From Asterella californica (Eukaryota; Streptophyta; Marchantiopsida; Marchantiales; Aytoniaceae), in assembly GCA_036924285.1 (NCBI GenBank), contig JAYKYS010000004.1, positions 32,768,001-32,832,000 on the forward strand: 64,000 nt of DNA, read 5' to 3'. The notes under the pieces were generated by a model. That model ran no database searches. It worked only from the letters and a program-made list of their open reading frames with translations, and was not told the DNA's origin. The stretch's first letter is position 1. Every line of letters begins with the position of its first letter. This document shows, one piece after another, positions 36,557-63,284 of this stretch. The position numbers and the translations under genes were made by a program.

Positions 36557-36601
36557 TTAAAACCCCCACTACCCGTATAAAGGCTCTGGGTAACCCAGAG
36601 C
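36557..36601 (+). repeat. Left end of element 1 with hairpin
   Basis: TTAA at 36557-36560, then AACCCCCACTACCCG, then TATAAA at 36576. A hairpin with 8-base arms (GCTCTGGG/CCCAGAGC) follows at 36583-36601. Elements 2 and 4 also have a hairpin directly after the TATA. Confidence 0.6.
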
Positions 36602-36949
36602 AGAATTCGGGGAGTAATAATGCTAAGTACAGTTGTCAGTTCCAGCCATGCTGTATCGCGATAGAATTAGCAAAGGATACTCTACATTTTTGTAAAAAAA
36701 TAGACGTATAAGACTCAAAAATATGTATGCAATATCCACTGACACAAAACAACTTTCTCACGTGATATCTGCAGCCACAGTGATAAAATTCGAATTTGAA
36801 CTCCTTTGGACTTGGGCAGTTGTCCCAATATCCATAGGCAGCAACTCCTGAAATCTTTGGGCAGTTGTCCTGAAAATGCCAGGGCAGTTTGAAACGAGAT
36901 GTGCTCCTTGCAGGAAGGAGGAGGAAGTCATTATCTTCTTGGCTTAGAC

Positions 36950-37240
36950 TGTAAACAGGATGCTGGTGAGGTGGGAGGGCTTGCCTCCTGCTCTGGAGTT
37001 TATTCATTTTCACTTTGAATCAAAGTGTGTCATTTGAAGGTGTTCATGTGTCATCATACTCCCATGTTATTTTACATTGTAAATTTTACACTGTAAACTG
37101 GATGTTGCTGAGGTGGGAGAGGCTTGGGGAGTTAACCTGCTGCTCTGGAGTTTATTCATTTTCACTTTGAATCAAAGTGTGTCATTTGAAGGTGTTGATG
37201 TGTAATCGTACTCTCAAGTTATTTTACAAGGTGATGCTCC
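36950..37240 (+). repeat. Tandem direct repeat, period 152
   Basis: Two near-identical copies are anchored at CTCTGGAGTTTATTCATT (36991 and 37143). The unit includes a small inverted repeat, CACTTTGA/TCAAAGTG. It lies between the left end of element 1 and its transposase-like gene. Confidence 0.9.
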
Positions 37241-37506
37241 TGAGACCTATAGAATTATAGAATTTTTGATGTTTATATGCTAGTGGCGTCTCTTATTTGA
37301 ATTTCAGAAGCTTTGTTGATTATACTCAGTTTAAATTTTATTGTTGAGCCTATATGATATTGTGCATTTTGTTCTTATTCTAGAGTTTCAATGATATATA
37401 TTTTGTTATTGATTTTTTGAAGTTGGACTTGTTGGCATGACGTATAGGAGTAAGTTGTTACTCGTAAACATTGCATACTTGTATCTCAGATCACTATTTT
37501 GACTAT

Positions 37507-39649
37507 ATGGCGGGTCGACGTTGGAGTCAATTTCCTTCCGATCAAATCAACTACCATGGGCAGAGACGTCCGAATAACGTTCAAGTTATTTAGATTCCAG
37601 AGGATCTTTTAGACACTTACTCACGTTTACGTCATGCACTGGGATCGCAAACGTCACATGCCGCTGTCTTGAGATGGTTGTTGGATGGTTCAGCAAGACG
37701 TATAGATGTCTTAGTGGCTGCTCGTGCACAACGTATAGCAGCCTCCGAGCATGTGTCTGATGAGTCCATAGTTGAACAAGAGTCACTAAACCATGTGAGT
37801 GATAGTCAGACTATTGTCCCCGATAGTCAAGTTGAGCCCACGAGAGTGCGTACTGATGAGTTGGAGGAGGAGCCTCACGTCGAGACGGAGGATGAGCCTC
37901 GGACACGCGTGGAGGCCGAATATGGGTTATGGGGCAGAGGAAAGATCATGGAGTTCTGTGATGTATTTCGTGTGAAATGTCCACAATCAGATTGCGTATT
38001 GTATTGCACCGCACCAGTTATTACAAAGTTGCATCAAGTTTGGCAATTGAAGTTCGGATGCGATGCAGGCCATATGACGGTTTTTGTGACAAGGGAGATG
38101 GAGAGAGAGAGGATCGCCAGAGGGCAGATGTACCACGTTGCATTATGTGCGGGTCTTAGTTATACCTCAATTGCGAGTATGCTAGAGGTCATGCGACTTC
38201 ATGTCCCCACAGAGAGACATTGGTATGATTTTCAAGGTGGAGTTGGACGTCCTCTCGGGTGGTGCAGTGCTGCATTATTACAATGGGAGGAACACAATGT
38301 GGCGATGCATGCAACATTGTTTGGAGGTAAATACTTATCTTATCATTTATGTACATAAGATATTTGATATTTATGTGTGTTTTTGATTATTATCAAGATT
38401 CTTATAAGTGTTTTTTGTAATATTGTACACACTAGAGCCTTTGATCCTATACGTCGATTGTCGATGAGATTCATATCACAATGGATATCATGAGACAGTT
38501 CCATTCATCAATGCAGCCGACAATCGAATTATTGAGATGGTCACGATGACGCGGATGGAAGCTGAGAGCTTTTGGAGAATAGAGACGGCCGCGGTTCAAA
38601 AAGGAAGTGAGAATCTCCAAGAGAAAGGCATGTTCATCTTGGAGATTATCCATGATGATATTCACGCTGTTGACACTATTATTGATAGGTATGTAACTTC
38701 ATAAGCTGTTTTGAAATTGTTTTGGAGAAAATTCTATTTTCCATGGTTTCATCTTGCATCTTGTGGTGCAGGAACGAGATCCGTAACCAAAAGGATCTTT
38801 GGCACAAGTGTAAGGGGATTGTTACCAAATTCAAGGAGGAGTTGCAAGATGTGCGTATGTCTACGAGTGATCAGGGAATCGAGGATGCACGGAGCAGGAG
38901 CCAGCTAGCGGTCTTTTCAGTGTCAACATTGAAAGAGTTTTTGTCGAGCTAGAGCTCTTCCTCTAGGCGGTTCAAAGATAGTGCTCGTGAATCGAATTGC
39001 CGAGCATCTAGCTCTTCCGACAGAGGATTACTGGCAGCCTGACGCACTCGAGGACTGAAATACCCTGAGCTTGGTGCACAAGATATTGCTTATAAACTCA
39101 AGTCATGGATTTACACTTGTGCTCATCGTGCTTTTGAGAGGTAATAAGTTCTATGTCATAGTTTATCGCTTTTGTGATTTCTATATTTCAATCTCACGTT
39201 ATTACAATTTTCGCTTATCTAACCATATTTCTTCCATTTGTTGCAGAGGGGACCTTCGTCCGGAGTTGATGTGTTTTGACATCTTGACTGCCGCATCACA
39301 TTGGGCTGGCGATCATTCGGATTGTCGTATTCTTCCAGGCGATCGACCTTGTAGTGAGCGCGAGTTTGGAGAAGGTGCACGCTTTCCACATGACGGAGCT
39401 ACTCATCTTGCAGTGGCGGCCTTCCTTACTAAACACATTACACCAGCGAAGATGCGATTCTACATACGCGCGAGAGAGAATTTCATGAGCGAGACCTTCC
39501 ACTCTGTCATCAACAAGTTTGCGACGAAGAGGATCAATTGGGAGAGATCGCATGAGGCTCGATTAGCTTGTGCTGCTATGGATTGGAACGAGAACACGAC
39601 CGGCAACAAACAGGGTGCTTGTGCGTCGAACAACGGCATGGAAGGATGA
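37507..39649 (+). pseudogene. Transposase-like gene with introns, copy B (best preserved)
   Basis: Probable exons are 37507-38326, 38436-38688, 38772-39140 and 39247-39649, with GT-AG borders that restore the reading phase. It starts MAGRRWSQFPSDQ. Only a few defects are seen: TAG at 37591, TGA in the second exon, and stops or a frameshift in exon three. An acidic stretch is followed by a Cys/His region (VKCPQSDC, KFGCDAGH). Later blocks are LYVDCR, IIEMVTMTRMEAESFW, IIHDDIHAVD, DLWHK, ASHWAGDH, ILPGDRPC and SHEARLACAAMDWNEN. The repeated acidic residues and the D-L-W-H motif resemble a transposase family known to me from animal elements. Exact superfamily and catalytic residues are not certain. 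Confidence 0.7.
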
Positions 39650-40744
39650 ACTGAGACAACGGATTTTTGGATACTGATAATAGGTAAATAAAATTATTTC
39701 TTTACAAGGTATATTATTTCTGGGTGATTTTGAGTTTACGGTGTATATTTTATCTTGCTGTGGCGGCCTTTTATACTTACACTTTTTCCTAAAAAAATGT
39801 TACAGAAGGTGCCTGTTCCTGCTGGTTTACGACAGACTTTTGTGTCTGCTTTTATTATCCTTACAAGGTATATCTTTTCTTTACATTTCATTTTTAATTG
39901 TCTTTCCCTGCCACTAGTCAATATAGTTGCGGTGATTGTAACAGATTGTGTGATCTCTTGTCTGTTCAATTCTTGCAGGGGTGCATTTTCTTGCTGGATT
40001 ACGAGCTTCATACTGTATCTGCTTTTATTGCCCTTCAAAATAATTATATAAGGTCACTTTTTGTTATGAGTCCTCTTGAGACAAATACTTGGTGCAAGTA
40101 TGCCATTTGTCAAATTCTTGCTATATTTTGAAATATATTTTAAAAATATATTTATCATCAAAACTCGAGGCTATACCATGAATGAAGCTAGACCATTTTT
40201 GGAATATATTAAGCATTATATAACTTATAATTCTTTGGTGAAAGGAAAGAGACTTTATGTTGGTAACAGAGCAGCTCCTTACACTATGTATACAACATTA
40301 TATATCACTTTCTGTGGCTCTGCATCGAAAGTTTACATCTTATCTTTGCAAATCTAGCTTATCAAGAACCACGGGTGTTCCAAATATCAGTCCGGATTTG
40401 AACTTAGATAAAAATTTGTGTCATTTCGGTAGCATCGGTTCCAGGTTCAGTTATGGATCCTGTTCAGACAAATACTGGGTCTGGACTTGAAATATATTTT
40501 TCTCGGAATACTCTTATGGTCAGAACTGCCTTTCCCATGTACCAATATATTTCCGGGATCTGGACCTTTGCTCTATTGTGTTGCTCTCTTTTGCAGAAAA
40601 TTGTTACTAATGTTTCCTCTGCTTGCTCACCTTGGATGGTTGATTGCCCTGTTTACTGTCTGCTCTGTGAGTATAAGCACATCCTTGTAAGTTTCCTTTT
40701 TTAATACTGACTAGAGTATTTGCTAATGGTCCACTTTAGATAGA
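39650..40744. other. AT-rich interior of element 1
   Basis: No gene recognised. Diverged direct repeats occur: TGCTTTTATT followed by CCTT at about 39850 and 40020, and AGACAAATACT at about 40080 and 40468. Confidence 0.45.
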
Positions 40745-41146
40745 TTACACGTAGATTTGTCTGCGTTCAGTAGTTGGAGTGCATTCCAACTCAATTTTCC
40801 CTTCTTCCATCTTTTCCGGAAGGAAATGAAAATTCGTTTCAATGTGCTTAGTCTTTCTGTGATGTTTTGGAAACTTGGCAAGTGAGATAGATATCACATT
40901 TAGTTTTATAAGAAGTACAAACTCCCATCCGAAATCCCTTAACAGCCTTTTCAGCAAAATAGCTTCTTTGGATGCTTCAGCCAAATATTCTGCAGCCATA
41001 CTTGATAAAGTAGTACATTTCTGCCATGTATGACCATGACACCACTCCTCCATCGAAAGTAAAAGGACATCAGTGGGAACTGGTTGGGAAGTTTTCTGTT
41101 GTCTGAACATCCTGCGAAGTCTGAATATTGAAATTTGGTTCTTCAC
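40745..41146 (-). pseudogene. Ty1/copia RNase H fragment
   Basis: The minus-strand frame has the copia RNase H end: AAEYLAEASKEAILLKRLLRD, then a block with SISLAKFPKHHRKTKHIE, then a tail with EEGKIELECTPT. The usual Y/CDN block before it is altered (LLIKLN). Only the C-terminal end of the polyprotein is present, with no LTR. It is probably a fragment that inserted into or was captured by element 1. Confidence 0.8.
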
Positions 41147-41365
41147 GTAAGCTTTTATAAGTAACCAGAGGAGCTGGTCGAGGCATCTTCAACTGTCTTC
41201 TCTGTTCTTGATTCTGTGAAGAACTGTAAACAAATAACGAAAGACTGTAAGACTACATGTAAGACTGTAGACTGTAAAGACAAATAACGACTGTAAGACA
41301 AAAGACTGTAAACAGCTAACGAAAAACTGTGAAAAACTTCGAAAATCTGTGAGAAAGTAACGTCA

Positions 41366-41450
41366 GTGGGAATTGAACCCACGAAACCTCCGTCTGGGTT
41401 GACGTTTCACAGGAGTGCACAAGCAACTCCTGGACCCGCTAGTCGGGATG
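41366..41450 (-). repeat. tRNA-like (SINE-like) piece, copy 1
   Basis: On the minus strand a short hairpin (AGGAG...CTCCT) precedes GGAGGTTTCGTGGGTTCAA, which includes a pol III B-box-like GGGTTCAATTCCC. It aligns with the plus-strand piece at 44360-44450. I cannot fold a complete tRNA. Both copies lie just downstream of SYTE genes, in gene orientation. Confidence 0.55.
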
Positions 41451-41513
41451 CAGCTAATATATATGCAATGCAGATGTCCTGGGAAGATAAAACATGCAAA
41501 CATGAAACAGAAC

Positions 41514-41916
41514 TTACTCTTTGCAGCCAACAAATTCCTCTCCAGGAGATGACCAAGTAACCTTCACAGCTCTCTCTAACGACTCAAGTAACTGAGTTCG
41601 ATCTTTGTATCCAAGACAAAAAACTATAGCCATGTACACTTGAAACCTTTTCCGCGATAGTTTGACCTCGGTGTATGATGCTGCTGCACAAGCCAACAGT
41701 GGTAACTCGTTGTCAAAACCGACATGCATATCAGTCCGTTGAGAAGACCTCTACACATGCCTCGGAGAACACAGGAAACTCAGATCGAATTTGATCAGGA
41801 GTCACCAAGATGGGAGTTTCTAAAACTCCTCCACTGACAACCCAGTGGCCAAGCGCTTCCCCTTCCCACTGAAGATTTGCTGTATGGCGAGATTCTACTG
41901 CCTTAGACTCAGCCAT
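41514..41916 (-). pseudogene. SYTE-family small gene, element 1 copy (frameshifted)
   Basis: Two overlapping minus-strand frames together cover the family. The first (41916-41731) has HWVVSGGVLETPILVTPDQI. The second (41729-41514) has FDNELPLLACAAASYTEV and then KRFQVYMAIVFCLGYKDR. Aligned with the intact copy at 43871, the break falls at the junction, at about 41730, and fits a single-base shift. A good splice donor (GTAAGT) overlaps the end. Function is unknown. I see no signal peptide, membrane segment or catalytic motif. Confidence 0.65.
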
Positions 41917-42299
41917 GACTGCAGATCAATCGTCAAGAAACCGCGCCAAGAAACCGCACTGTGCAGCCACTGCACAATCACGATATTCACACCCGCCGGA
42001 GCGAAAACGTGCCAAGATACTGCACTGTGCAGCCATTGATAAAGCGCGCCAAGAAACCGCACTGTGCAGTCACTGATAAAGCACGATATTCACACCCGCC
42101 GGATCGAAAACGTCTCTCAAAACGTGATGCAGTGCTCGAATGTAGGCAGTGCACTCAGAAGGGTTCTGTGTTTGAACGCGGAAGGGTCCTGTGCTTGAAC
42201 AAGACCCATTAGTTTCAACGATACCAAGGCCGAGGCCTTCAGATTCAACAGCCAAGACTTTCAGATTTAGACGAAGGCCTTCAGACTCCCTAAACAGAA

Positions 42300-42580
42300 G
42301 ATCTAATTCCTGCCGCCAACTCCACGGAGATACAAAGCATAGAGAAAAAGCACCAAGATCGAAAGCACAACCATGAAGTCCAGTTCCTGCCGTCAACTCC
42401 ACCGAGATACAAAGCACAGCAAGAAAGCACCGAAATCGAAAGCACAAGCAAAAAGCTTGATTCCTATCGCCAACTTCACTGAGATACAAAGCACAACGAC
42501 AAAGCACCGAGTTCAATAGCACAAGCAGAAAGTGCTGCTTTCTGTCGCCAACTCCACCGAGATCGAAAGTAGAACGAGGA
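42300..42580 (-). repeat. Tandem repeat, period 77, in the leader of the element 1 SYTE gene
   Basis: Four units are anchored at GCCAACTCCAC-like sites at 42315, 42392, 42469 and 42547. They lie between the right terminal TATA (42821, minus) and the gene start. The minus-strand frame through them is open only because the repeats are; I do not call it a protein. Confidence 0.8.
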
Positions 42581-42788
42581 AACACCGCGATAGCAACGAC
42601 GAGATGGCACGCGCACAGCAACGATGAGAAATGTCAAAATTCGGGCCGTCGACTACTGCCTGCGGTAGTACGAACGCATCACCTAGGGCAAGTCCTGCTC
42701 GGGAAGCTGGGCAGGGCGGGAAGTCTCACGGCCGAGGCAGGAAGAGTCACTGACCGCCTAGACCCTAACACGATCCAGCCAAAGGCAT

Positions 42789-42839
42789 CCGGAGAGAATG
42801 ATTCTCTCCGGCCCTTTTATACTCTCAGTGGGGGTTTAA
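42789..42839 (-). repeat. Right end of element 1 with hairpin
   Basis: On the minus strand: TTAA (42839-42836), ACCCCCACTGAGAG, then TATAAAA beginning at 42821. A perfect 23-base palindrome lies just inside at 42789-42811. The TATA is correctly placed to drive the minus-strand SYTE gene. This is a possible terminal promoter. Confidence 0.65.
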
Positions 42840-42866
42840 ACCACCAGGTCTCCTATAAAAGGGGCG
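42836..42866 (+). repeat. Left end of element 3 / promoter-like box
   Basis: TTAA (42836), ACCACCAGGTCTCC, then TATAAAA at 42854, the same spacing as in the other ends. The string CCTATAAAAGGGGCGT is shared with the right end of element 2 (minus strand near 59120). Both face a SYTE gene, which supports a promoter role. Confidence 0.65.
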
Positions 42867-42914
42867 TCCTGGCACCCTGCTGATGTGGCATTCTGCCGCG
42901 TAAGCCAGACCTGC

Positions 42915-43160
42915 ATCGAACAGTGACGGACTGCCTAGAGCCGGAATTTTTGAAACTCGCCTGAGCGCGTCGTGCGCATTTAGATTTTTTTTTCGTCGTC
43001 TCTCGGTCGTTCGCTTCCAGGCTTCCTCGTTACGGTCGAATAGTGACGGACTGTCTGGAGCCAGAATTTTTGTAACTCGCCTGAGCGCGTCGCGCGCATT
43101 TAGGTTTTTTTTTTCGCCGTCTCTCGGTCGTTCACTTCCAGGCTTCCTCGTTGCGGTCGC
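42915..43160 (+). repeat. Tandem repeat, period 120
   Basis: Two copies are anchored at GTGACGGACTG (42923 and 43043) and end in CTTCCAGGCTTCCTCGTT. Each has a T-run. It forms the start of the leader of the SYTE gene at 43871. Confidence 0.9.
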
Positions 43161-43484
43161 TCGCTTCCAGACCTCTCTCGTTGCAGCTTTCCGCTTTTGC
43201 TATCGCTTGGTCGTTCGCTTCCACGCATTCTTGCTATGCCTTTGCCATCACGGTTTTGGACAGTTCTTTTTTGTACAGGTTCGACGTTTGCTCGGTCGCT
43301 CGCTTTCACGCTTCCTCGCTGCGGCTCTGCCATCGCTGATTTGAGTTGTTCTTTTCTGTTCAAGCTCGAGGTTTTCAGTGGTCTTCTCTCGCCATCGCTC
43401 CGCAGGACTTCCCGTCGAAGTTTGCATCTTTTCACACCAGTTCTCAGGTTATTCTCGGTTCTTACTGGATTCAGTGGTTAGCTT

Positions 43485-43685
43485 CAGGTTCTTCTCGGTG
43501 TACTGTGAGTGCTACCACGCTTCCTCATTTGCTTCGATTCTTCTCAGTTCTCAGGTTACCAGTTCTTAGGTTATTCTTGGTTCTTACTGGATTTAGTGGT
43601 TTGCTTCAGGTTCTTCTCGGTGTACTGTGAGTTCTATCACGCTTCCTCATTTGCTTCGATTCTTCTCAGTTCTCAGGTTTTTCGC
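43485..43685 (+). repeat. Tandem repeat, period about 123
   Basis: Copies at about 43491-43556 and 43614-43679 share GTGTACTGTGAGT and CACGCTTCCTCATTTGC. The CTGTGAGT site, also present in GCACTGTGAGT at about 43830, looks like a splice donor. The leader may contain duplicated small exons. Confidence 0.8.
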
Positions 43686-43870
43686 GGTTCTTTTCAAGTT
43701 CAGTGGTTTGTCTCAGGTTCTTCTCGGTTCTCATTGTTGAGTGATATTTCTCGGTTCTTTTCGGTTTTCATTTCAGTTTCTTGTAAGTTTCTAACGGAAT
43801 GGAAACTCGTGTTTTCTATTAAGGGGGTGCACTGTGAGTACTATCATCTTTCTGGATTCTTTTAGGTTTC

Positions 43871-44260
43871 ATGCCACATACTGTGAAGCGACGGAGGGTG
43901 ATGGCTGATGATGAGTTGAGAGATGTTTGGGTAGTCTCGGGTGGCTGTCTTGGTGACAGTTCTTTATCTTTCACGACAGAAGAACTGCGAGAAAGTTTTC
44001 CTGGTTATAATGCAGCTGTGATGGCTTTCGTTGTCTCTGATGGAGGTGCACACCTGTGGGACTTTGAGAGTGAGTTGATAGCTTGCATTTCTGCCTCTTA
44101 TACTGAAGAAACCTCCAAAAAGAAACGTTTCGCCATTTACAGAGAGCCTTTTTTTCTACTTGGCTATGTAGAACGGAAGCAGTTGCATGAACTCCTTGAA
44201 GCTGCAGTAAAATCCGAGTTTCATGATCACATGGAAGTTTTTGTCGATTTTCAGAACTAA
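43871..44260 (+). CDS. SYTE-family small protein, element 3 copy (intact)
   Basis: The 129-residue frame starts at ATG 43871 (MPHTVKRRRVMADDEL) and ends at TAA 44260. I do not recognise the family. Conserved blocks shared with the copies at 41.5 and 57.9 kb are WVVSGGCLGDS, TTEELRESFPGY, LWDFESELIACISASYTEE, KKKRF and LLEAAVKSEFHD. The first residues are basic; the rest is acidic and looks globular, with no signal peptide or membrane segment. It sits next to the terminal repeat in each element, with a long repeat-rich leader, so it is probably an element-encoded accessory protein (DNA-binding partner or regulator are guesses). Confidence 0.6.
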   Translation: MPHTVKRRRVMADDELRDVWVVSGGCLGDSSLSFTTEELRESFPGYNAAVMAFVVSDGGAHLWDFESELIACISASYTEETSKKKRFAIYREPFFLLGYVERKQLHELLEAAVKSEFHDHMEVFVDFQN

Positions 44261-44322
44261 GTTTTTGTTTCTGATGTACATTTCGGTTCTCATATCTCTG
44301 TCTTTGTAATTTTATTCTTAGC

Positions 44323-44352
44323 GGCATTCAGGATGCATGATGCATCCTGAAT
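44323..44352. repeat. Perfect hairpin downstream of the SYTE gene
   Basis: ATTCAGGATGCAT and its complement, with 13-base arms around one base, stand about 65 bases after the stop codon. It could end or process the transcript. A second hairpin (TAGGAGCTG/CAGCTCCTA) follows at about 44360-44383. Confidence 0.8.
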
Positions 44353-44359
44353 AGCAGGT

Positions 44360-44450
44360 CTAGGAGCTGCTGAATCAGCTCCTACGAAATGTAATGCCCA
44401 GATGGGGGCTTCCAAGGGTTCAAATCCCTGTAGCATGTCATGAAACCGTG
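44360..44450 (+). repeat. tRNA-like (SINE-like) piece, copy 2
   Basis: The hairpin is followed by CCCAGATGGGGGCTTCC and GGGTTCAAATCCC, the B-box-like part. It aligns with the minus-strand piece at 41366-41450. Both elements place it after the SYTE gene. Confidence 0.55.
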
Positions 44451-44639
44451 TCTCTTGCAGGGTACTCCTGATGCACGGTCTTCTCGGCTGGAGGCTAGAC
44501 TAAGACAGTGGTTTAGGTGCCAGTTACAGACTTCGGAGTAGTTTGCAAGGTGGCTGGAACACTGCTCGGGTCTACAAAGTTTTCGCTTGTACCTTATGAC
44601 GAAGGAAGCTGTTTTTTTCCCGGTTTTCCCAACGAGCTC

Positions 44640-45382
44640 GAACAGGAAGTCGGAAACTTGAGCTCCGATGTCTTCGTCGTTCGTGTACTTCGGTTCAAGT
44701 TTACCAGCTTCTTTTGCTGTCAAGGCCAGCTATCCATGGCTGTCAAGGTCTCGACCAGAATGAAGTCCATCACACATGACGGCTCACCTCCATTCTGCAT
44801 CCTCTTCCTGCTCTTGCTAGCGCATTTGGCTAGTGTATCAGTCAGAACGACAACTGACTTCTTCGCTTGGTAGTAACTAAAACCTGGAATGTTGATGGGT
44901 AAAGTCATGGTCCCCTTGTTGAAACTTTCGTAGTTCTTGTTGAACTGGACCTTCTCTTCGTCCTCTAAATACGGTCTGAGGAATGTAGTCTGTGAGGTTT
45001 CCAAATTAGCATGTAACAGAAACCTGAGCTGGAGTGGTTCTTTCCTCGTTTCGAAGGTCTTGATCCCTTGAGCTATATGCTTCCGAATCAGCTTCTCTTG
45101 AATGGACAGATACAGTGCCAGAGCTTTCGGGGTAAAAATCAGACCGAGGCGTTTGCGCAGGTCACGATGATCATCCCCGAACATGAAAATGAAATTATTC
45201 TGATCCTCCCAGAATTTCACAGGGTCTGCAACCATAGCATATACATTGCCTAAAACTGGTATGACGTAACTTCGCCCTGCCAAGTGCTTCGCCTTCTTGA
45301 AGTACGAAATCTGCTCATACACTATGTACAGCACCAAAGCCGTTCCTACGATCATCTTCCTTTGGCTGACACTTACCTTCAA
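44640..45382 (-). pseudogene. Captured CYP710A (sterol C-22 desaturase) fragment
   Basis: The main frame 45382-44720 codes 220 residues, from the N-terminal membrane anchor (MIVGTALVLYIVYEQ) through VIPVLGNVYAMVADPVKFWEDQ, FIFMFGDDHRDLRKRLGLIF and LETSQTTFLRPYLEDEE. These are CYP710 blocks. Between FWEDQ and FIFMFG about 50 residues of the family are missing. At about 44722 a short duplication around CCTTGACAGC shifts the frame. The protein continues with KYTNDEDIG to about 44640 and stops before the oxygen-binding I helix core and the heme cysteine. It cannot be an active P450. CYP710A makes stigmasterol-type sterols in green plants. Its place between the SYTE and transposase genes suggests gene capture. 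Confidence 0.8.
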
Positions 45383-45599
45383 GCCATGTCAATTTGCCAC
45401 TCCAAAAAATGTTACGAGGAGTGAGATACCTTACACCTAGACAGTTGAAACCACTGCCCTAGTCTCGGCTTAGAGTCACAAGGAGTTACTGTGTAACTCC
45501 ATAATGAAATCATTTCCATAACATTATTGAGTTTAGTGCAGATGACGAGAAAAGTTAGACTAAGTTTGGAGTTAGTATTTTTGTGTTAAAAAAATATAA

Positions 45600-46145
45600 C
45601 AAGTTATATAGGAAAAAAACATATATGTAGTATGTTGAAAATTTTACAACAGAAAAGGAACAGCAAGTTTGGAGTTAATATTTTAATTTTATGAAAAAAT
45701 AACAAGTTATATAGAGTGGAAACATTTAAGTAGTATGTTGAAAATTCCACAACAAAAATGATATGCAAGTTTGGAGATAATATTTTTATGTTATGAAAAA
45801 ATAACAAATTATATAAGGTGGAAACATTTATGTAGTATGTTGAAAATTCCACAACGGAAAAGGAACAGCAAGTTTGGAGTTAATATTTTTATCTTATGAA
45901 AAAATAACGAGTTATATAGAGTGGAAACACTTATGTAGATGTTGAAAATTCCACAACGGAAAATGAACAGCAAGTTTGGAGTTAATATTTTTATCTTATG
46001 AAAAAATAACGAGTTATATAGAGTGGAAACATTTATGTAGTATGTTGAAAATTCCACAACGGAAAATGAACAGCAAGTTTGGAGATAATATTTTTATGTT
46101 ATGAAAAAATAACAAGTTATATAAGGTGGAAACATTTATGTAGTA
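45600..46145 (-). repeat. Tandem repeat, period 102-103, about six units
   Basis: Units are anchored at TGGAAAC sites at 45717, 45819, 45922, 46024 and 46127, with a diverged unit before. Each has GCAAGTTTGGAG and ATGAAAAAATAAC. A single related unit stands downstream of transposase copy D (57550-57680), so this is an expansion of a normal 3' part of the element. Confidence 0.9.
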
Positions 46146-46400
46146 TGTTTAAAATCTACAATGAAAACTGTTGTTAACTGGTACTGAAGTACTTGTTGTT
46201 CGTCACCTGTGCAGAAACAATCAAATTATCAGTTATAGCTGAATCAACATTCACAACCAAAAAATATCACCTAGCAAGTTATGTATGAAGTGAACAACCA
46301 TGTTTAATACTTACATAAACTAAATAGTATGCTCGCCGAATATCGTGTCTCTCAACTCAGTCTTCCATGCAGTTGTTCTCTCAGGTAACTCTCGGCGTGT

Positions 46401-46850
46401 CTAAGTCCGGTTGCGCACTGTCGTATGTTGAGGACGTCGCTGATAAATCTTGATGGGCTCCCGACGTGTATTCTCGTTCCAGTCCATGCAACATGCCGCT
46501 AATCGAGCTTCATGTGACTTCGCAAAATGTGTCCTTTTCGTGGTAAACTTGTTTATGACCGAGTTGAAAGTCCTAGACATATAGTTCTCTCGAGCTCTAG
46601 TATAAAATTGCATCTTCGTTGACGTAATGGTCTTCTTCATGAATTCTACCATAGCTCGATGAGTGGGAGAATCTACAATGCAGACATCATTTAGTTTACA
46701 TCATAATCAAGATTATGTCTATCTAATATGCACATTAGAATTGACATTAGAATATAGAGAACATACCTCGTAGATAATATATGTCTGAGACGGGTGTATT
46801 TAGGTTCGAGATATTGCAGCAAGGTCTGTCTCCGGGTAGAGTAGACTGCA
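46401..46850 (-). pseudogene. Transposase-like gene, copy C (3' end only)
   Basis: Two exons remain. 46850-46767 reads LPGDRPCCNISNLNTP and then DIYYLR. A GT-AG intron separates it from 46672-46401, which reads FYTRARENYMSRTFNSVINK and SHEARLAACCMDWNEN. Exon borders match copy D exactly. The 5' two-thirds are absent; a Rep copy follows upstream at about 46.95 kb. Confidence 0.75.
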
Positions 46851-46949
46851 TCTCTGCTACAAGTACTTGTGGCTACTGCTGAACAACTGTGATGGACGGG
46901 TCGGTCTATGTATCTCTTTGTATACCTCCTCCTGCACTGGCCACAACGT

Positions 46950-47744
46950 CTATTGTCTTGCCAAAAGAAGATTGAACATCTTATGCGGTCACTTCAGCAA
47001 GGTGCAAAAACTATTTCCACAGAGAGTCCAGTCTCCATTCCTGCATCCCATCTTGGATGAGCCAGCGAGGAGAAGTACTGTATTTCCCAGAGGTTAGCAT
47101 GGTTCTCAAACATGTGCGGATTATAGTAGACAACGGATGAGAGCTCCTGTACTTATTAAACTGAAGTGCCTAGCAAGTACATTCGCATAATTGAGTTCAA
47201 CACTATTTTTTGTATCCGTAGCATCTAAAAGAACGTAGATATCCTTCCCACCAGTGAGCATGCTCTCAGAAACATTTTTCATTGTCACATGATGATATTC
47301 CTCCTTCTGATCCTTCATACAGTAACCGACCATACCAACATAGATGTGCAAGCCACGATTTGTTAAAGACTTCACATAAACCTCAGGGTCCAAAGGTTTT
47401 TGATGCTGCCAACCCAAAACAACCATAAGCCATTTTTTAACCTACGGGTAATTCTTTGCACGGATGCAGACTACTCCTTGAAAATGCAGATGAAGTAGAG
47501 CGTCCCCACGCTCTACAGAAAACAAACCCGAAATACAGTGCTTGTCTAGAAAAACTGCCAACAAGGAGAAGAGTTCTAAGTCTAAATCCCTCCCTGTTTT
47601 ACAAATAGTAATTGACACCTCGAGATTGGACGGATTCGTCTTCTTCGCTCTTGCTTCCCTTCGCAGAGACATTAAGGCGAGATGGCTGAGAGAAGTGAGG
47701 ACAAACATACTTAAACTTCGATGGATCAAGAACAACACAGACAC
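46950..47744 (-). pseudogene. HUH-type Rep (rolling-circle-like) protein, copy F
   Basis: The frame from 47744 to 47121 is broken only by TAG at 47444-47442. It holds LEVSITICKTG, then FSVERGDALLHLHFQG with the H-hydrophobic-H pair (codons 47492-47490 and 47486-47484). It continues with LTNRGLHIYVGMVGYCMKD; the tyrosine (47324-47322) is in a Y-x2-K setting, like motif III of Y1 Rep proteins. After a frame change at about 47125 the homology to copy E goes on with KYSTSPRWLIQDGMQE and RLDSLWK (to about 46950). HUH enzymes nick one DNA strand and form a phosphotyrosine link. The pattern recalls Replitrons, HUH transposons described in green algae, but I could not compare sequences. Confidence 0.65.
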
Positions 47745-47759
47745 AAGGTAGAGTACGTA

Positions 47760-49005
47760 TCCTATAAATTGCTCGTACTATAGGCTTCAATAACTGTAAG
47801 CTACAACAGTCCACGAAAGAACTAAGGTACGTAAACATCTGTTGCTCCCGATCTTGTACTACGAGTCAATACGTATCGTCTATGGTGTCCAAGTACATAA
47901 AAGGTCTAGATATAGTCACAAAGACACGAGCTACTTTCAAAAATCTGTATCAAGAAGAAATCATAGAATATGCTCAGAGAAATCGAGATCTAAGTATATA
48001 TAGAAGCGATCAGCTTCTAATCTTTGATCTTTAAATCCTTGATGGGAGACCTCAACCAACGTAAGAAAGATGGGAGGGAAACCTAAAGATATATACAAAA
48101 AGTCTTCGTCAAACTCAGAAGAATCAGTAACAGAAATGTGAGGAATGACAGCAACAACTTTAGGTTCAGGGCTCGAAGGAAGAAGAGGAGTTGGTTTCGG
48201 ACTCGAAGCAGGAAGACTAATCGCTTCAGAAACAAGACTTGCTTCAGGAGTAGAAGAGGTATCGATTGTGTCCAACTTTTCATCATCGAGGCAAAACAGA
48301 CAAACAGTAGAAACGATGAAACTAGACAACGATACAACTCTGACTTCATTTTCAGTCGATGTGTATCTGTACACGGCGGCAGCCCTCACTTACATCTGCG
48401 ACAACCTCCAAGGAAAGTTAGACAACGTCATACCACAGACATCATATCACGAAACGAGAGCACGACCAAGAAAATGACAAGATGTGACCACTGCCCATAG
48501 CTGCATGAGCGGCAACGGATAAGAAGAGGGCAGCGAACAAAATGTACAGTTGGGAGGTGCAACATCCGACCGCAGTGACGACCGATTGAAGAAGTCAAAA
48601 TCCCGTCCTCAGCTTGCACGTCAAGCAGACCCAATTCCAAATTATGCAGTCGGGAGACGACAATCTAGTCAGCTACCTGTACGAAATTGCAGTCGCGATC
48701 GATCGTCCAATCGCGTCCAATCGCGTCCACACCAAACTCATTCAACAACTCAAAATCTGCACTCAGGCATGGACTTCAATTTGCAGGCAACAGCCTACAG
48801 CCCACATCCGAACAACAACGACAATCCGTAGTTGCAGAAAATTACACTGAGCTCACACCCAGCAGCAAGCAGGCCCAATTGCGAATGTTCCATCCAACAG
48901 CCCACATCCCACAACCCACTCATTCAACAACTCCAAATCGTCTCAAAATTTCCAACTCCAAATCATCCCAAATCGTCTCGAAAATCGTCACCAATTGCTC
49001 AATCT
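47760..49005. other. Spacer, possible N-terminal part of Rep copy F
   Basis: A minus-strand frame of 142 codons (48389-47961) has a Ser/Pro/Glu-rich low-complexity stretch (PASSPKPTPLLPSSPEP). It could be an N-terminal extension of the Rep protein or chance. Nothing else is supported. Confidence 0.35.
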
Positions 49006-49008
49006 CGT

Positions 49009-49645
49009 CCACAGCAGATCGATTTCCACGAGCACAGAATTCCAGTCCAAATCACGACAGATTTCTGATTGGACCGAGCGAACAGAGATGTGCAAGAGCA
49101 AAAGCAACGGCAGCGAACGAGAGCAGTACGACGAGCAACAGCAACAGCAGCGAGACAGAGGAAAGAGCGGCCGCAGTGGACAAAGCCGCGAGACGAACAA
49201 AGAGCGAGACGAACGAAGACAAGAACGGATAAGCAGCAAGATGTGTGGTGGTGGCAGCAAAATTTCCAGCCAACATCCCACGACAGCGAAGAAGAATTTG
49301 CAGCCAACAGAGCACAACCCACCCGACTTATCACTGATCGTCCAATCGTGTCAAAATTTCTAACCCACAGTCCACACACAATCACCCAATCGCGTCCACA
49401 GCAGATCGATTTTCACGAGCACAGATTCAAGTCCAAATCACGACGGATTTCTGATTGGGCCGAATGAACAGACATGTGCAAGAGCAAGAGCAGCGACAGC
49501 GAACGAGAGCAGTACGACGAGCAACAACAACAGCAACGCCAGCGAATGAGAAGAAGAAGGAGCAGTCGCACTGGACACAGCCGTGAGACGAACGAAGAGC
49601 GGGATGAACAAAGAAGAGAACGGGCAAGCAGCAAGAGCCGCGGCA
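49009..49645. repeat. Direct repeat, period 387
   Basis: Two copies start at CAGCAGATCGATTT (49012 and 49399). They share CAGATTTCTGATTGG-like sequence, ATGTGCAAGAGCA and GAACGAGAGCAGTACGACGA. The minus strand is pyrimidine-rich (CTTCG, CTCG, CTGTTG runs) like the SYTE leaders at 43 kb. Long open frames on both strands are by-products of this composition. Confidence 0.85.
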
Positions 49646-54248: not shown

Positions 54249-54296
54249 TTAAACCACATGGGCCCCTATATTAGCGGTGGGTTAACCCACTGCTAA
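54249..54296 (+). repeat. Left end of element 2 with hairpin
   Basis: TTAA, ACCACATGGGCCCC, then TATATTA at 54267. The hairpin TTAGCGGTGGG/CCCACTGCTAA follows (54271-54296). The same hairpin, with small changes, stands in the left end of element 4. Confidence 0.7.
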
Positions 54297-55339
54297 ACAG
54301 TTTAGTCACGATTTTGAAAAAACAGACGGAGGTGGGTTTACCCATGAGTATTATGTCCAACTGTAATGTTTTTATTTGTTGTTCAATGATCTTCATCTAT
54401 GGTTCAAAACGTTCGTCTGCTTGAGACTTAAAATTTGAGCCATCCATGGCTCAAAATGGATGTTTTACGTGGACAATATGACAGAGATAAGATTTCAGCA
54501 TTTGAAAGAGAATATTGAGAATATTCTTTTTTGAAATTTAAAATGTTCTAGTATCAAAATATTTCATTATTGTGATGAACCGAATTTTATATAAGAACAA
54601 TTATAATCAGAAAAGTAAACATACTGAAAACTGATGATAAAACAAAACGGTCGAGAGACGGATATTCCACCCGTTATTGCATACCCGGAAAATATTTTCT
54701 GACATACTAGATACACTACTGCAAGACCTGCAACAGCTTCTTTCCGCAGGCTGCTGCAGGTCTGGACGCTGCCGTCCTTCCCCCATCCCAGCCACCCTTC
54801 ACCTAGTTCTTTTTTTTTCTTCTCCTGCTTCCTACCTTCATCCTCCCTTTCTTCCAGCCTTCCTCTACCCTTCTTCTCACCCATCTCAGATCCGGGATAC
54901 CATTTTTTCCCCTTCTTTTTCACTCTTCGCTCTAAGACTTGGTTATTTCCAAGTGTCTTAGTCATCCTTTTTCCTCATTCATGTTTTTAGTTATATTTTC
55001 AAACTATTGGAGTTTTAGTTTTTTTTGTTAGGACTGTTAGAGTTTTGTATTAGTCTTCTTCTGATTTGGAAAATTCTTGTGGTTATATTTTTGTTTTTTT
55101 ACTTAATCTAGATTGTTATAGTTTTATTTCAATATTTTTTATATTTTTGAGATGATTTGAGAGTATCTCAGTGACGAGGACTGGACCTCCAGACGGATAG
55201 GTTCATTTTAATTGTCAAGTTTTAAGTTCATGTCTCTTAGGATACATCCACCACGACCGGACGATAGGCCTAGACCTAGAGGATGTCCGGAGGTCCCTTG
55301 AATCAGAGAGGCAGAGGTTCGAAACCATATTCCAGATGT
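54297..55339. other. Interior of element 2 before the transposase
   Basis: No gene supported. 54720-54770 contains an inverted repeat (GACCTGCA/TGCAGGTC), and 54760-54890 is almost pure pyrimidine on the plus strand, like a leader. AT-rich from 54960. Confidence 0.45.
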
Positions 55340-57450
55340 AATTCTAGGAGGGTGATGTGGAGGTACTTGTGTCAGAGATGGATGATGATGAGTTTGTGAC
55401 CGATGTTTTGAATGCGTTGGGTGTTCATGTATGGTCGTCTTTCTATCCTTTTCAAGCAAGCTGAAGTATGCTTGTAAATCTGTGAATGAGGACGCATTAT
55501 ATCTTCTTATTTGAATTGACATATTTTATCTATAGGTGACAGATGATGTGTTCGACTCTCAAATCTCATTAGATCCAATAGTAGATTCTCAAATCCTCAA
55601 TGAAGTGGATAATGGTGAGCCACATGAGAGAGAGATGAGAGAAGTTGACATACTTGTCGAAGATTTCTTGAGGATTGGATTTGTATCTTTGTCTTGATTT
55701 TGAGAGAATCTTTCAAGATTTCAAGATGAAGAGTCCTCATCCAAGATGTGATAAGCTCTTGTTACCTCCAACAATCAAGGCTTTCCATCAGACTTGGAAG
55801 TTGAAGTTCAGTTGTGAGTGTCAACACAAGTTTGTATGGTTGTCCACGAAGATGGAGTTGTATTATAAGATCTCCAATGTGATGTGTCATATGTACCATT
55901 CTGCTCTGCACTATGTGCGAGACTCGGATATACACAATTGGATTCAATCTAACGAGAGGTCGGCGTACAACCTATAGAACGAAAGTACTTTTATGGATTT
56001 CAGAGCGGGAAGAGACAACGGATTGGATGGACTCAAGCAACACTCGAGCAATGGACGGTCAAGAAAGAAGAGGTGCAGTCAGAAATACTCGCCCGGCATT
56101 TTCTGGACTTGAATCATGCTCCCATGAGAGATGAGTGTGTTCACATTGTGCTAAGTGACTTGTATCTTACTCATGTTGTGATATCATATGCATAAGTAAT
56201 CTTACTTAGAATGTCTTAAATATGGATTTTTGAATTTGACTTGTATGTCTTAGAAAACTTCGTTGTGTATGCCGACCTCCGTTACGACTCCATCCGAAAT
56301 GACTACAACAGCACTTGTGCATTCATTGATGCGTCTGACGGTCGTGTCATCGAGATGGTGAATATGACTTGAGTCGAAGTAGGAGGAAATGCATTGTTGA
56401 TCGAGATCCAGCGATTGGTAGCTCGCGATATTGTTCTTGACGAGGTTGTCCATGATGACAAGACATCGGTGGATGTATATTGCGTCAACATGGCATCGTG
56501 AGCCATAAGGACCTATGACAAAAGTGCAAGAACGTGACCAATAAGTTCTTAGCGGAGGTGCAGACGAGGAAGTGATCTCCGGATGGCATTGACGAAGCTG
56601 AGATGATTGCAAACCTTGAGCTCCTCACAAAGAGACAATTGGAAGGATGGCTTCGATCGCAAGTAGCTTCGACTATGAGAAATAAACCCATGTTGGTTTT
56701 AAGAGAGTGGATCAGATACGAGATCTTCGAGATAATGAGGTCGTCGATTTCTGACGATATATTTATCCAGAGCTGATGACTCACGGTATTGCAGACAAGC
56801 TGAAGGGATGGATTTACACTTGTTGTCAGCTGAATGAGAGGAGGACAGTCATGGTTGGTGGTCGTTATACTACTGATGATGAAGACGACACGAGCATCTT
56901 AGTTTTGGACATTTAGAACGCAGCTGATCATTGGACAAGAGATCACAGGACGTGCATGACTCTACCCGGAGATAGAACTTGCTGCAATATTCCGGATCTA
57001 AATAGACCCGCATCAGACACATATTATCTACGGGGTATATTTTCTATATTCTTATGTCAGTAATTGCTTAGATTAAGACTTGTATATATTAATAGAGTGT
57101 ATCTTGTTTATGATGTATATAAATGATGTTTGCGTTGTAGATTCTCTTACTCATTGAGCTATGGTAGAACTCATTACCATTACTTGAAGAAGATCATTAT
57201 GCCAGCCAAGATGCGGTTTTACACTAGAGCTCGAGAGAACTATATGTCAGAGACTTTCAATTCCGTCATAAACAAGTTTGTCATGAAGAGGACTCATTTT
57301 GCGACGTCACATGAAGCTCGATTGACGGCATGTTGCATGGACTTGAACGAGAACATACGTCGGGGTGCAACCGGACTCAGACACGTCGGGAGCTACAGAA
57401 AAAGTAAGTACTTAACTTGTTTGTTCACTGGGTTTACTTCATACATAGCT
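55340..57450 (+). pseudogene. Transposase-like gene, copy D
   Basis: Blocks in order match copy B. VDSQILNEVDNGEPHE (about 55580) precedes a Cys/His part (HPRCDKLLLPPTIKAFHQTW, KFSCECQHKF; 55740-55840). YGFQSGKRQRIGW (about 56000) follows in another frame. Then come VYADLRYDS and GRVIEMVNMT (56265-56370), VVHDDKTSVDV (about 56450), YPELMTHGIADKLKGWIYTC (about 56765-56825), TLPGDRTCCN (about 56965) and a last exon from 57141 with FYTRARENYMSETFNS and SHEARLTACCMDLNEN. Many stops and frameshifts. Intron positions before the last exon agree with copy C. Confidence 0.7.
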
Positions 57451-57549
57451 TTCTAGAGGATATTTTTGAGTTGTGAATGTTGATGAAGCTATAACTGATA
57501 ATTTGATTGTTTCTGCACAAGTGACGAACAACAAGTACCAAAGTACCAG

Positions 57550-57680
57550 TTAGCAACATTTTCTGTTGTTGAAAATTCAACATACTACATACTCTTTTCC
57601 ATCCAATATAACTTGTTATTTTTTCATATGATATAATATTAGCTCCAAACTCTCTCTTAAGAAGAACTCTTTCTGTATCT
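57550..57680 (+). repeat. Single unit of the 102-base repeat
   Basis: GTTGAAAATTCAACATACTA and the following AACTTGTTATTTTTTCAT are the complement of the unit expanded at 45.6-46.1 kb. The stretch before it (GTGACGAACAACAAGTAC) also matches the flank of copy C, which confirms that both belong to one element family. Confidence 0.8.
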
Positions 57681-57903
57681 CACTGTATACTTCAAGTTCC
57701 GAAACCTGATTTAGGATTCAAATTCCCGTTTTTTTTAATCTGGAAGATGATTGCAAGCTCTCTTCTTTTCTTCTACGTCACGCATTTCTCAATAGATTTG
57801 AGTCCCTTCAAGTTTGAACGATGTTAATCTGTGCCATGCTTCCAGTGAAAAAAAACTAAGATATGAAAAATGAAATGCATATCAGACAACAGAAACAGGG
57901 AAC

Positions 57904-58272
57904 CTAATTCTGAAAAGCGACAAAAACTTCACTGTAATCATGAAACTCACGTTGTACTGCAGCTTCAAGGAGTTCTGACAACATGCTCCCGGTCCACATG
58001 ATCCACATGATGAAACGTTTCTTTTTGGAGGTTTCCTCCGTGTAGGAAGAAGAAATGCAAGCTATCAGTTCACTCTCAAAGTCCCATAGGTGTGCACTTC
58101 CATCAGAGATAACGAAAGCCACCACAGCTGCACTATAATCAGGAAAAGCTTCTCGCAGTTCTTGTGTGATGAAAGTTAGAGGGCTGTCACCAAGACAGCC
58201 ACCCGAGACTATCCAAGCATCTTTTAACTCTTCGGAAGTCATCACCCTCCGTCTCTTGATCGTATGTGGCAT
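57904..58272 (-). CDS. SYTE-family small protein, element 2 copy
   Basis: The 122-residue frame from ATG 58272 to TAG 57904 aligns along its whole length with the 129-residue copy at 43871 (MPHTIKRRRVM, WIVSGGCLGDSPL, LWDFESELIACISSSYTEE, KKKRF, LLEAAVQREFHD). Seven residues are missing after KKKRF, where this copy reads IMWIMWTGSM instead of the conserved IYREPFFLLGY; the short repeated CACATGATC in the DNA suggests a local rearrangement. Otherwise open. Function unknown. The right-end TATA of element 2 lies upstream at 59121. Confidence 0.55.
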   Translation of the reverse strand: MPHTIKRRRVMTSEELKDAWIVSGGCLGDSPLTFITQELREAFPDYSAAVVAFVISDGSAHLWDFESELIACISSSYTEETSKKKRFIMWIMWTGSMLSELLEAAVQREFHDYSEVFVAFQN

Positions 58273-58559
58273 GGAGTCTATTTGAACTCAGAAATAAAAT
58301 AGAAAACTAGAAGCAAGAGTGCCGGGAGACTGAAAACCAAGACAGAACTTGGAACAGCGAAGACAGAACCTACAACGAATGAACGATGCGATGTGTCCAA
58401 TGAAAACGATGTGCTTGCACAGAACGTGAGCCGCAGCGAGAGATCAAATGAGAGAATCAAGAAAAATCTCAAACTTATATGCATAGAACGTGAGACGCAG
58501 CGATGAAAAAGATAAGTCTCGAACCCGCCTGCACAAAATGTAAGCCGCAGCGATGAGAA

Positions 58560-58885
58560 AGAAAAATCTCGAACCCGCCTGCATAGAACGTGAGCCGCAG
58601 ATGAGAAAGAAAATACAGAACATGAGCCTGCAGAGAACATTGACCGTAGCGATGGAAAAGAATATCAAACCCGCCTGCAGAAAACGTGAGCTGCAGATGC
58701 GAAAGAAAAGTACAGAACATGAACCTGCAGAGAACGTCAGCCGCAGCGATGGAAAAGAATATCAAACCCGTCTGCAGAAAACATGAGCCGCAAATGGGAA
58801 AGAAAAGTACGGAACATGAGCCGCATGAGAACGTCGGCCGCAGCGATGGAAAAGAGTCTCGAACCCGCCTACAAGAAAACATGAG
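58560..58885 (-). repeat. Tandem repeat, period 97, in the SYTE leader
   Basis: Three units are anchored at GATGGAAAAG (58651, 58748, 58845), each with AGAACATGA and GAACGTCAGCCGC-like parts. This is the third SYTE leader made of tandem repeats, with a different unit each time. Confidence 0.85.
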
Positions 58886-59106
58886 CCGCAGCGATGGTAA
58901 TGAGAGCTTCTCGTGAAAATCCTCGATCCCTAGCTCTAATCCTGTCTCCTACCCTACGCTTTGGTTCTGTGCAAGCGGGAGGCGCGTCTAAGGTGGGTCG
59001 TCGCTGACGCATCAGCTGATGCGCTCTTCCCTGAGTTTGAATCAGAAAAGAGCGCGTGCTCACTGTTGCGTGCAGACGACAAAAGTCATGTCAGCTCCCG
59101 AGCCAG

Positions 59107-59139
59107 TACGCCCCTTTTATAGGGGCAATGGTGGTTTAA
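59107..59139 (-). repeat. Right end of element 2 / promoter-like box
   Basis: On the minus strand: TTAA (59139-59136), ACCACCATTGCCCC, TATAAAA from 59121. The box CCCCTATAAAAGGGG is itself nearly palindromic. It faces the minus-strand SYTE gene. Confidence 0.7.
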
Positions 59140-61013: not shown

Positions 61014-61055
61014 TGCATATTCCCCTCTTCCAAACTTGGAAGAGGTGAATATGCA
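61014..61055. repeat. Foldback palindrome, TGCATATTCACCTCTTCC type
   Basis: 18-base arms (61014-61031 and 61038-61055) with one mismatch and a 6-base loop. It is the fullest copy of the family whose right half, GGTGAATATGCA, recurs at 28785, 31013 and 31679. Confidence 0.85.
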
Positions 61056-61401
61056 TCCAAAGCGTACTTCCGGCCGAGAGTCGGAAGACGACAAGCGGGA
61101 ATGGCGGGATATTTACGGTTGGCGTAGAGCGCAAGTAGGCAGGCGTTAGGTCATTTTCTGAAAATGCTGGTTCTCAAGTGGTCTAAATCGACTTAAATCG
61201 ACGTGGGTGTTATAAAAAATATATAAATGTTAAATCAATATTTTTAAAATAAATTTATTATTTTTATATATATTATATATTAAATAAAAAGTACATGCCG
61301 GAAGTTGCGGACAAAATCCATAAACGAAGTACGTTAGAGCGCGCACTGGAGAAAATAAATCCGGACTAGAGCATAACCGTCAAACAGTTTTTGTGAACCA
61401 T

Positions 61402-61501
61402 TTAATTTATCACCTAACCCTTCCCGCCGGAAGGGTAGGTGATAAATTAATCTTCCATTGCATTATCACCTGCTTCCGAACTTGGAAGCAGTGATAATGC
61501 A
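61402..61501. repeat. Paired foldback palindromes (ACCTAACCC and CTGCTTCC types)
   Basis: The first palindrome spans 61402-61450 (CGCC loop, one base missing in the right arm). The second spans 61459-61501 (TGCATTATCA arms, CTGCTTCC stem). This repeats the two-hairpin order seen at 1021-1134. Confidence 0.85.
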
Positions 61502-62650
61502 AGGAAGTCAGATTTACGTAGAATATGCGTGCTAGATATAGAGGTGTTAGATAACATCAGCACACATATCGACGTAAAATCGAACTCGCATCGGACTGTT
61601 CTGAGTCTCACGTATTTTCGTCATGAGACTTTTACTCGACCAATAATCGCACCCAATGCACACTGGAAAGTAGTCTCAATCTGTTGTTCATGATCGGAAC
61701 CGCGTTCTCCAATAAGTGTGTCCCTCGCCCCTCGATCAGAAAAAGTCAAGCTTCTGACTCGACGTTTGGAGGTGAAAGGTCTCCCCTAGTGACAAAAGAG
61801 ACGGTCGAGTAGCTTCTTAGCATGTAATCAGTCCAATAGTTGAGACCTCCTATCTGCCTCTATATGTAAGGTTGCTAATTCTAAGTTCAATTGATTTTCC
61901 AAGTTTTTGCAGCACACTGTATTAATATAATCTAGAAATGAGAAAATGCCATGATGTATCATGTTTTCAGTTCCCATTCAATTAGGAAGTAAGCTCAATC
62001 TCTTAAAACTAGAAAATATTTTCCATCTTATGCGTCTTTCTCTAATTTTTATTTGCTTAGAGTATTTTGTATTATTTGCGCTTCGCTTTCGAACCTTCTT
62101 GGACTAAGAAGACTTGGGGAGGAGGTGCTAGAGGATGACAATCTGTTTCGCAAGTTGCTAACTCCTTATTATTCAATGCAAAATATATTTGCAGATCTTT
62201 TATCCCACTTAGAACTATAATTATAACTGATTAAACGACAGATTGTACATAAATCAAAAGATAGTTTCATAAATTATTTATTTCATATCTTTTAGCTTTT
62301 AATGTAATCTCCTACACTATGTAAATTAATATTTCTTGTTTTCATATTTACTTATTTATTTTCTCTGTTAAATAATATAACATGTACTATTTGGTATCCT
62401 CTATACACATGAACGGTGCCAGTTTCCCTCTTTTCTTTTTCTTTTTCAATTCTTTTTACGGAAAGTCGGCTGTACACCCGGTGGAAATCTATAAATATGA
62501 CAACGAAGTACATGAGCATGAAGGGACAACAGAGGGAAGATCTAACAGGGGAATCCATCTTCACTTTTAGTATTGAGCAGAGAAGGGAGACCCCAAGAAA
62601 GAAGATCAGGCCCGACTGTCCTACCGCCATCTGGAAGAAAACCCACCGAA

Positions 62651-62680
62651 CTTAACCAATGGGACTACCCATTGGTTAAG
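62651..62680. repeat. Perfect hairpin
   Basis: 13-base arms CTTAACCAATGGG and complement around ACTA, about 115 bases left of element 4. Confidence 0.8.
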
Positions 62681-62798
62681 CCTTGAGCCTTGAGCAGCAG
62701 GGGGTAGCGGTGACAAGTGGGACCACGAATTACAAAGGACAGGGTAACCTGACCCTAGCCAGACAATAGGGGGCATTTCCTTTCAATAGTACGTTTAA

Positions 62799-63280
62799 AC
62801 CACAAGTACCGCTATATTAGCGGTGGGGATTCCCACCGCTAATCATTTTAAACCTTCGCTAAGTAAGTTCAGCACGGGCGGGGGCCCCTGAGAGATTTGC
62901 GCAACGCAGTTACCAACGCAGTATAGCCTCAAACACTGTGATCTTGGTAGCAAAATGAGCAGAAAAGGAAGAGCTTCAAAATGAGCCCATGATGAGCTCA
63001 GGAGGACTACGGATGACTTCAAAATTATCAAGTGAATCCCGGATCACTGAGAACCACAGAAATAGAATATTTTGAATTTTGAATTTTGAAATGTTCTCTT
63101 ATCCAGCATATTTTGTTATTATCACTTACCCTCACGTTACTATGAACCAACTGCTCTTTTGAGACAAGGAGCTCCACAGAGACCTTGGCCTCCCGCACTC
63201 TGACTGAGAAAAAAAAAAGAGCTACAGTGAAAAGAGTCCGCCGCGTGGGAAGTGAAGGCTTTTATACCCCTACTAGTGGT
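62799..63280. mobile_element. Short non-autonomous relative, element 4
   Basis: TTAA at 62795-62798 and 63281-63284 bounds 482 bases. Terminal 18 bases match at 14 positions (ACCAC, then AGTA, then TATA). The left end has TATATTA and the hairpin at 62817-62842; the right end has TATAAAA on the minus strand from 63266. No part of the transposase or SYTE genes is left. It looks like a MITE of the family. Confidence 0.65.
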
Positions 63281-63284
63281 TTAA

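Follow-up and report, generated by a model that had tools for sequence, protein, structure and literature searches.

The TTAA-specific DNA transposons of the Kolobok superfamily are characterized, according to Kojima and Bao (2022; PMC9587614), by a TTAA target duplication, by termini of the form 5'-RR and YY-3', and by a DDE transposase with a C/DxxH motif that is followed, in almost all groups but Kolobok1, by a zinc finger between DxxH and E. The same paper lists the C/DxxH motif as common to hAT, P and MuDR. Several Kolobok lineages carry a second protein, which in KolobokP is encoded downstream on the complementary strand, and the only plants assigned Kolobok elements there are chlorophytes and rhodophytes. 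Here we describe a related family in the land plant Asterella californica, four elements of which lie in a stretch of 64,000 nucleotides (contig JAYKYS010000004.1, positions 32,768,001 to 32,832,000; hereafter the window). Short boxes at the borders of these elements are very probably the termini of TTAA-specific cut-and-paste DNA transposons, which make up a diverse family with long members of about 6–7.5 kb that carry two converging genes. Kolobok is the nearest described system, and this assessment includes the mechanism outlined below.

Three features of Kolobok recur in this family: the 4-bp TTAA duplication, a C/DxxH motif between the second D and the E of the transposase, and a zinc finger before the E. 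A second protein, known from several Kolobok lineages, is also present, although it has no recognised match to the five kinds listed in PMC9587614. Relative to the description given there, the differences are termini of the form AC..GT, a catalytic region that encloses a SAP domain, a TATA motif in both ends, and the host group. Most descriptions of Kolobok concern animals, fungi, algae and protists, whereas this family resides in a land plant. In mechanism and transposase signature the family is closest to Kolobok. Since its termini are AC..GT instead of RR..YY, we call it Kolobok-like and do not file it as Kolobok.

A preliminary description of this DNA had proposed a family of TTAA-flanked transposons from their ends. 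The transposase, the second gene, a palindrome at the left end and the relation to Kolobok go beyond that proposal. They place a Kolobok-type cut-and-paste family with 1,595 exact ends in the genome of a land plant, and they add a transposase with an internal SAP domain and a second protein that occurs in every long element examined. Among the papers listed in the literature searches there is no report of Kolobok in bryophytes and no mention of PF20700. For land plants, the literature searched mentions Kolobok only as a label among rare superfamilies in a spinach repeat annotation, and the word is absent from the main text of the Riccia sorocarpa and Apopellia genome papers. A review names both Kolobok and Marchantia in unrelated passages. 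Generic plant repeat annotation may label such elements as unclassified or Mutator-like.

Ends, pairing and target site

The preliminary description had listed seven sites in the window with TTAA, ACC and TATA at constant spacing, and all seven were found where it had placed them. The motif ACCAC-N9-TATA occurs five times in the window compared with 0.42 expected occurrences, and none of 100 shuffled sequences reached five. A weight matrix built from the seven sites scores them at 33.7–37.9 and the next-best site in the window at 14.5; as the matrix was trained on these sites and is circular for them, only the gap between the scores is informative. The uniform pattern proposed for all ends does not hold for element 1, the ends of which read ACCCCCACT-N5-TATA. 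The left copy of element 1 begins with TAAA-ACCCCC instead of TTAA. This TAAA is probably the result of one changed base, because TTAA directly precedes ACCCCC in all eight other ends of this type that were fetched.

The proposed pairing into inverted ends stands for elements 1, 2 and 4, but the window contains no partner of the site at 42836 (+). This site belongs, as the right end, to another element in minus orientation (element 3), which shares a single TTAA with element 1; a left end of element 3 was looked for and not found. A TTAA stands at either border of elements 2 and 4. The variable middle of the ends had been said to agree within pairs and to differ between them. This agreement is real but modest: among 21 pairs (elements 2 and 4 together with 19 pairs on contig C1; element 1 excluded) an average of 5.6 of the 9 bases are identical, compared with 4.5 for permuted partners, and 6 of 10,000 permutations gave a value as high, in a sample that includes several closely related pairs and one pair (L022) that joins two neighboring elements.

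The genome-wide searches covered the 516.7-Mb assembly that contains the window (773 contigs). The pattern TTAAACCAC-N9-TATA occurs 1,595 times compared with 28 times for a reversed control. Pairing was assessed on the first 100 of the 1,595 listed boxes, all of which lie on one contig. Neighbors within 10 kb form 19 convergent and 3 divergent pairs, while random placement predicts 0.93 convergent pairs with a maximum of 5 in 1,000 runs. That 38 of the 100 boxes stand in convergent pairs speaks against the possibility, raised in the preliminary description, that such boxes occur near genes without inverted partners. For the remaining 62 boxes no partner with an exact match lies within 10 kb. 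Some of these cases can be due to mutated or variant ends, because the pattern also missed the true right end of element L022, which has an 8-base middle. Ends of the element 1 type are found 62 times by exact match (control: 0) and form 6 convergent pairs, that of element 1 included, with no other neighbors within 20 kb.

By span the 19 pairs comprise nine of 0.46–0.57 kb and ten of 6.0–7.9 kb. In these pairs (18 fetched stretches) one end reads TATATTA and the other TATAAAA, with TATATAA as the single exception. L022 was rejected as a single 7.9-kb element: its right-hand 487 bp belong to an adjoining short copy, and L022 itself terminates on the right near position 6780 in the orientation of the element. 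Short elements of the element 4 type share with L022 about 300 bp at the left end and short parts near the right end, and they therefore resemble a long relative that has undergone internal deletion. At L014/L034, a short element is apparently inserted in the left end of another family member, near its TATA.

To avoid presupposing the target, left ends were sought without requiring TTAA (206 matches, control 0), and flanks were fetched for 30 of these. The ACCAC itself was fixed by this search. It is directly preceded by TTAA at 29 of the 30 loci and by CTGA at one, TTAA also follows 12 of 12 partner right ends seen at these loci, and the ten bases outside the left TTAA show no clear pattern. 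Beyond the TTAA, the left and right flanks of the fetched pairs differ and show no duplication of the 8–11 bp that MuDR, P and hAT elements produce. By sequence, a TTAA duplication with ACCAC ends is identical to a TA duplication with AACCAC ends, and we adopt the first reading.

Empty sites were sought as paralogous loci within this one genome rather than in a sister genome. The joined flanks of a 488-bp element (L012/L033) gave 36 matches: the junction is spanned by 27, the element's own flanks account for 2, and 7 are one-sided. Twelve loci were fetched, including the 2 own flanks. The other ten contain no extra bases at the junction, and nine of them carry a single intact TTAA and one TTAT; the match is short on the left, where the repeat begins only about 20–27 bases from the site. 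For element 2, the junction is spanned by six matches to diverged repeat copies. One of these reads TTAA at the site and the other five read TTAG, and gaps lie just to the left in three, which weakly suggests insertion into TTAA. The flanks of element 4 are unique in the genome. The TTAA duplication that had been predicted is thus borne out by the flanks and by the single TTAA of empty sites. Together with the ends and their convergent pairing, these observations support the assignment of the elements as TTAA-target transposons.

Two converging genes

All 13 long elements that were examined carry two converging genes. The gene that reads from the left end codes for a DDE transposase with a DxxH motif, a zinc finger, and a SAP domain located inside the catalytic region. 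In an alignment of 38 rows, with gaps counted in the total, the DxxH residues D385, L386, W387 and H388 are kept in 35, 36, 33 and 35 rows, respectively. The residues H517, H522, C525 and C534, which would form a zinc-binding site, are present in 29, 30, 27 and 27 of the same rows, and the remaining rows mostly contain gaps. The predicted structure is of the RNase H-type DDE fold. A fold search with this model returned the P element, ISCth4 (which we take to be an IS256-type transposase) and hAT (Hermes) on top, at only 7–12% identity; ISCth4 and Hermes recurred in a second fold comparison. A Pfam search with seven pieces of the window gave nothing above the cut-off.

Relatives of the family were found in Riccia and in the alga Klebsormidium. 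The best full-length match of the element 1 transposase is P0001 of Riccia sorocarpa, a species with a 661-residue predicted transposase. In a tree of the C-terminal domain (33 rows, 95 columns), in which 12 of 30 inner branches are open, element 1 and 10 other Asterella rows group with Riccia sorocarpa P0021–P0023 (support 87/86), and P0001 does not group with element 1.

The second gene codes for a small protein of about 130–200 residues that reads inward from the right end and is present in all 13 long elements. Its frames are open in many copies, and in one subfamily it is apparently under purifying selection. Ratios of nonsynonymous to synonymous substitution rates for comparisons of the E3 group with the L069 group were dropped, as the ungapped pairs on which they were based do not align. 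A comparison with a protein database returned 11 candidates, none at E ≤ 0.01. A structure predicted from the window rows alone had a mean predicted local distance difference test score of 55, too poor for a fold search. The family may still be active, and activity is testable because many accessory frames are open and Riccia sorocarpa has the 661-residue predicted transposase.

Proposed mechanism and classification

The left-end palindrome adjoins TATA on its inner side. Of 22 left ends, several of which are close relatives, 17 have a palindrome score that exceeds the 95th percentile of 600 interior windows. At the right ends the count is 1 of 23, namely element 1. Left ends were assigned by TATATTA (in element 1 by the transposase) and never by the palindrome. 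The letters vary between subfamilies and the symmetry is kept, as illustrated by TTAGCGGTGGGGATCCCCACCGCTAA and GCTCTGGGTAACCCAGAGC.

From these features we propose how the elements may work. The transposase most likely recognises the ACCAC-N9-TATA inverted end of its own subfamily by reading its N9. It would then cut at the TTAA border and join the element to a new TTAA, which is thereby duplicated. The terminal TATA most likely doubles as a core promoter from which the gene at that end is transcribed, so that both promoters would stay with the ends through every move. The left palindrome may be a site at which the transposase binds and limits its own transcription, and the short copies of 0.46–0.57 kb would have moved in trans. 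The alternative that TATA and the left palindrome are transposase-binding sites only, without a role in transcription, is somewhat less likely than not in our estimate. It is consistent with their fixed spacing to the TTAA border and with their presence in short copies too small for genes, but both genes run inward from an end whose TATA points the same way, and the TATA at the right fits a canonical TATA box. We favor ends that combine recognition and promoter.

As to classification, the family may be a true Kolobok lineage with a drifted terminal dinucleotide and an accessory protein that is a divergent KolX minus its zinc-binding cysteines. We regard this assignment as a serious contender, although we lean against it. 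The TTAA, the DxxH, the zinc finger before the E and the two genes agree with it, as these traits are described in PMC9587614. The accessory profile is also co-linear with the P2X7 ballast domain, with only 1 of 200 shuffles scoring higher. The hhalign probability of this match is only 4%, however, and P2RX7_C was found neither in 30 accessory proteins nor in a profile search of the Protein Data Bank, both at E ≤ 10. A genome search for P2RX7_C at E ≤ 1 was empty, which does not imply absence, as 14 control genomes were empty too. The accessory alignment contains no cysteine cluster, and the AC..GT termini with TTAA directly before ACCAC also disagree with this assignment. The similarity to the ballast domain (the KolX fold) is a weak lead.

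A more speculative classification would make these elements a separate streptophyte superfamily of TTAA-specific DDE transposons, sister to Kolobok. Such a superfamily would be defined by two genes and two promoters, by ends that unite binding site and core promoter, by a palindromic operator that most subfamilies have at the left end only, and by an accessory protein of unrecognised fold that is needed for movement. We consider this unlikely as a whole, and retain the designation Kolobok-like.

PiggyBac elements share the TTAA target, but their ends read CCY compared with ACC here, a Pfam search of 8 family members at E ≤ 0.1 returned no piggyBac domain (an absence of match only), and the P element, ISCth4 and hAT structures top the fold list; we reject this reading as highly improbable. 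Equally improbable is a reading of the boxes as promoters of ordinary genes, with ACCAC upstream of TATA. The fixed distance of the TATA, the TATAAAA at right ends and the 62 unpaired boxes would fit, but as a full explanation this reading is refuted by the convergent pairs, the TTAA at both outer borders, the divergence of the flanks, the empty sites and the transposase that long pairs enclose; the ends may nevertheless include a promoter role.

Features of the window

The coordinates of the four elements, their genes and a further transposase remnant are collected in Table 1.

Table 1. Transposon features in the window (positions in the 64,000-nucleotide stretch)
Feature	Position	Strand	Remarks
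Transposase remnant of the same family	15855..17670	-	ends not recognised
Left target duplication of element 1, TAAA	36558..36561	.	one base off TTAA
Element 1, ACCCCCACT-N5-TATA ends	36562..42835	+	inverted ends; palindromes at both ends
TATA and adjoining palindrome GCTCTGGGTAACCCAGAGC, element 1 left end	36576..36601	+	
Element 1 transposase gene	37507..39646	+	about four exons; in-frame stops and frame changes
Element 1 accessory (second) gene	41517..41916	-	one frame break
TTAA common to elements 1 and 3	42836..42839	.	
Element 3	42840..46842	-	right end at 42840; end coordinate is last homology to element 2
Element 3 accessory gene	43871..44257	+	open, 129 aa
Element 3 transposase gene	46332..46842	-	C-terminal part
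Element 2 left TTAA	54249..54252	.	
Element 2	54253..59135	+	inverted ends; homologous to L018, L019 and element 3
Element 2 left-end palindrome TTAGCGGTGGGTTAACCCACTGCTAA	54271..54296	+	adjoins TATA
Element 2 transposase gene	55672..57456	+	degraded
Element 2 accessory gene	57907..58272	-	open
Element 2 right TTAA	59136..59139	.	
Element 4 left TTAA	62795..62798	.	
Element 4	62799..63280	+	short, no gene; inverted ends; left and right parts match L022
Element 4 right TTAA	63281..63284	.	

Element 3 contains a fragment of a plant cytochrome P450 gene (44720-45388, -), with the accessory gene on one side and the transposase remnant on the other. This fragment matches solved P450 structures (best E 1.3e-07) and is possibly captured host DNA. 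The lost left end of element 3 is adjoined by a likely remnant of a Replitron HUH endonuclease (47121-47777, -), with a match to PF21859 at E 2.4e-05, below the cut-off. A unit of about 100 bp is repeated in tandem at 45548-46170 in element 3 and occurs once in element 2 (57557-57651). Similar stretches of about 85 bp lie in opposite orientation in element 1 (41368-41452) and element 3 (44341-44428). A tRNA scan of the whole window, both stretches included, returned no tRNA and gives no support to a tRNA-like reading of them. The segment at 40745-41188 (-) in element 1 is, judging from a motif, presumably a piece of a copia-type retrotransposon, with no supporting Pfam match. The host genes in the window code for a cullin (PF00888; 6423-7974, +) and a UBA/FAF1-like protein (32260-33363, +).

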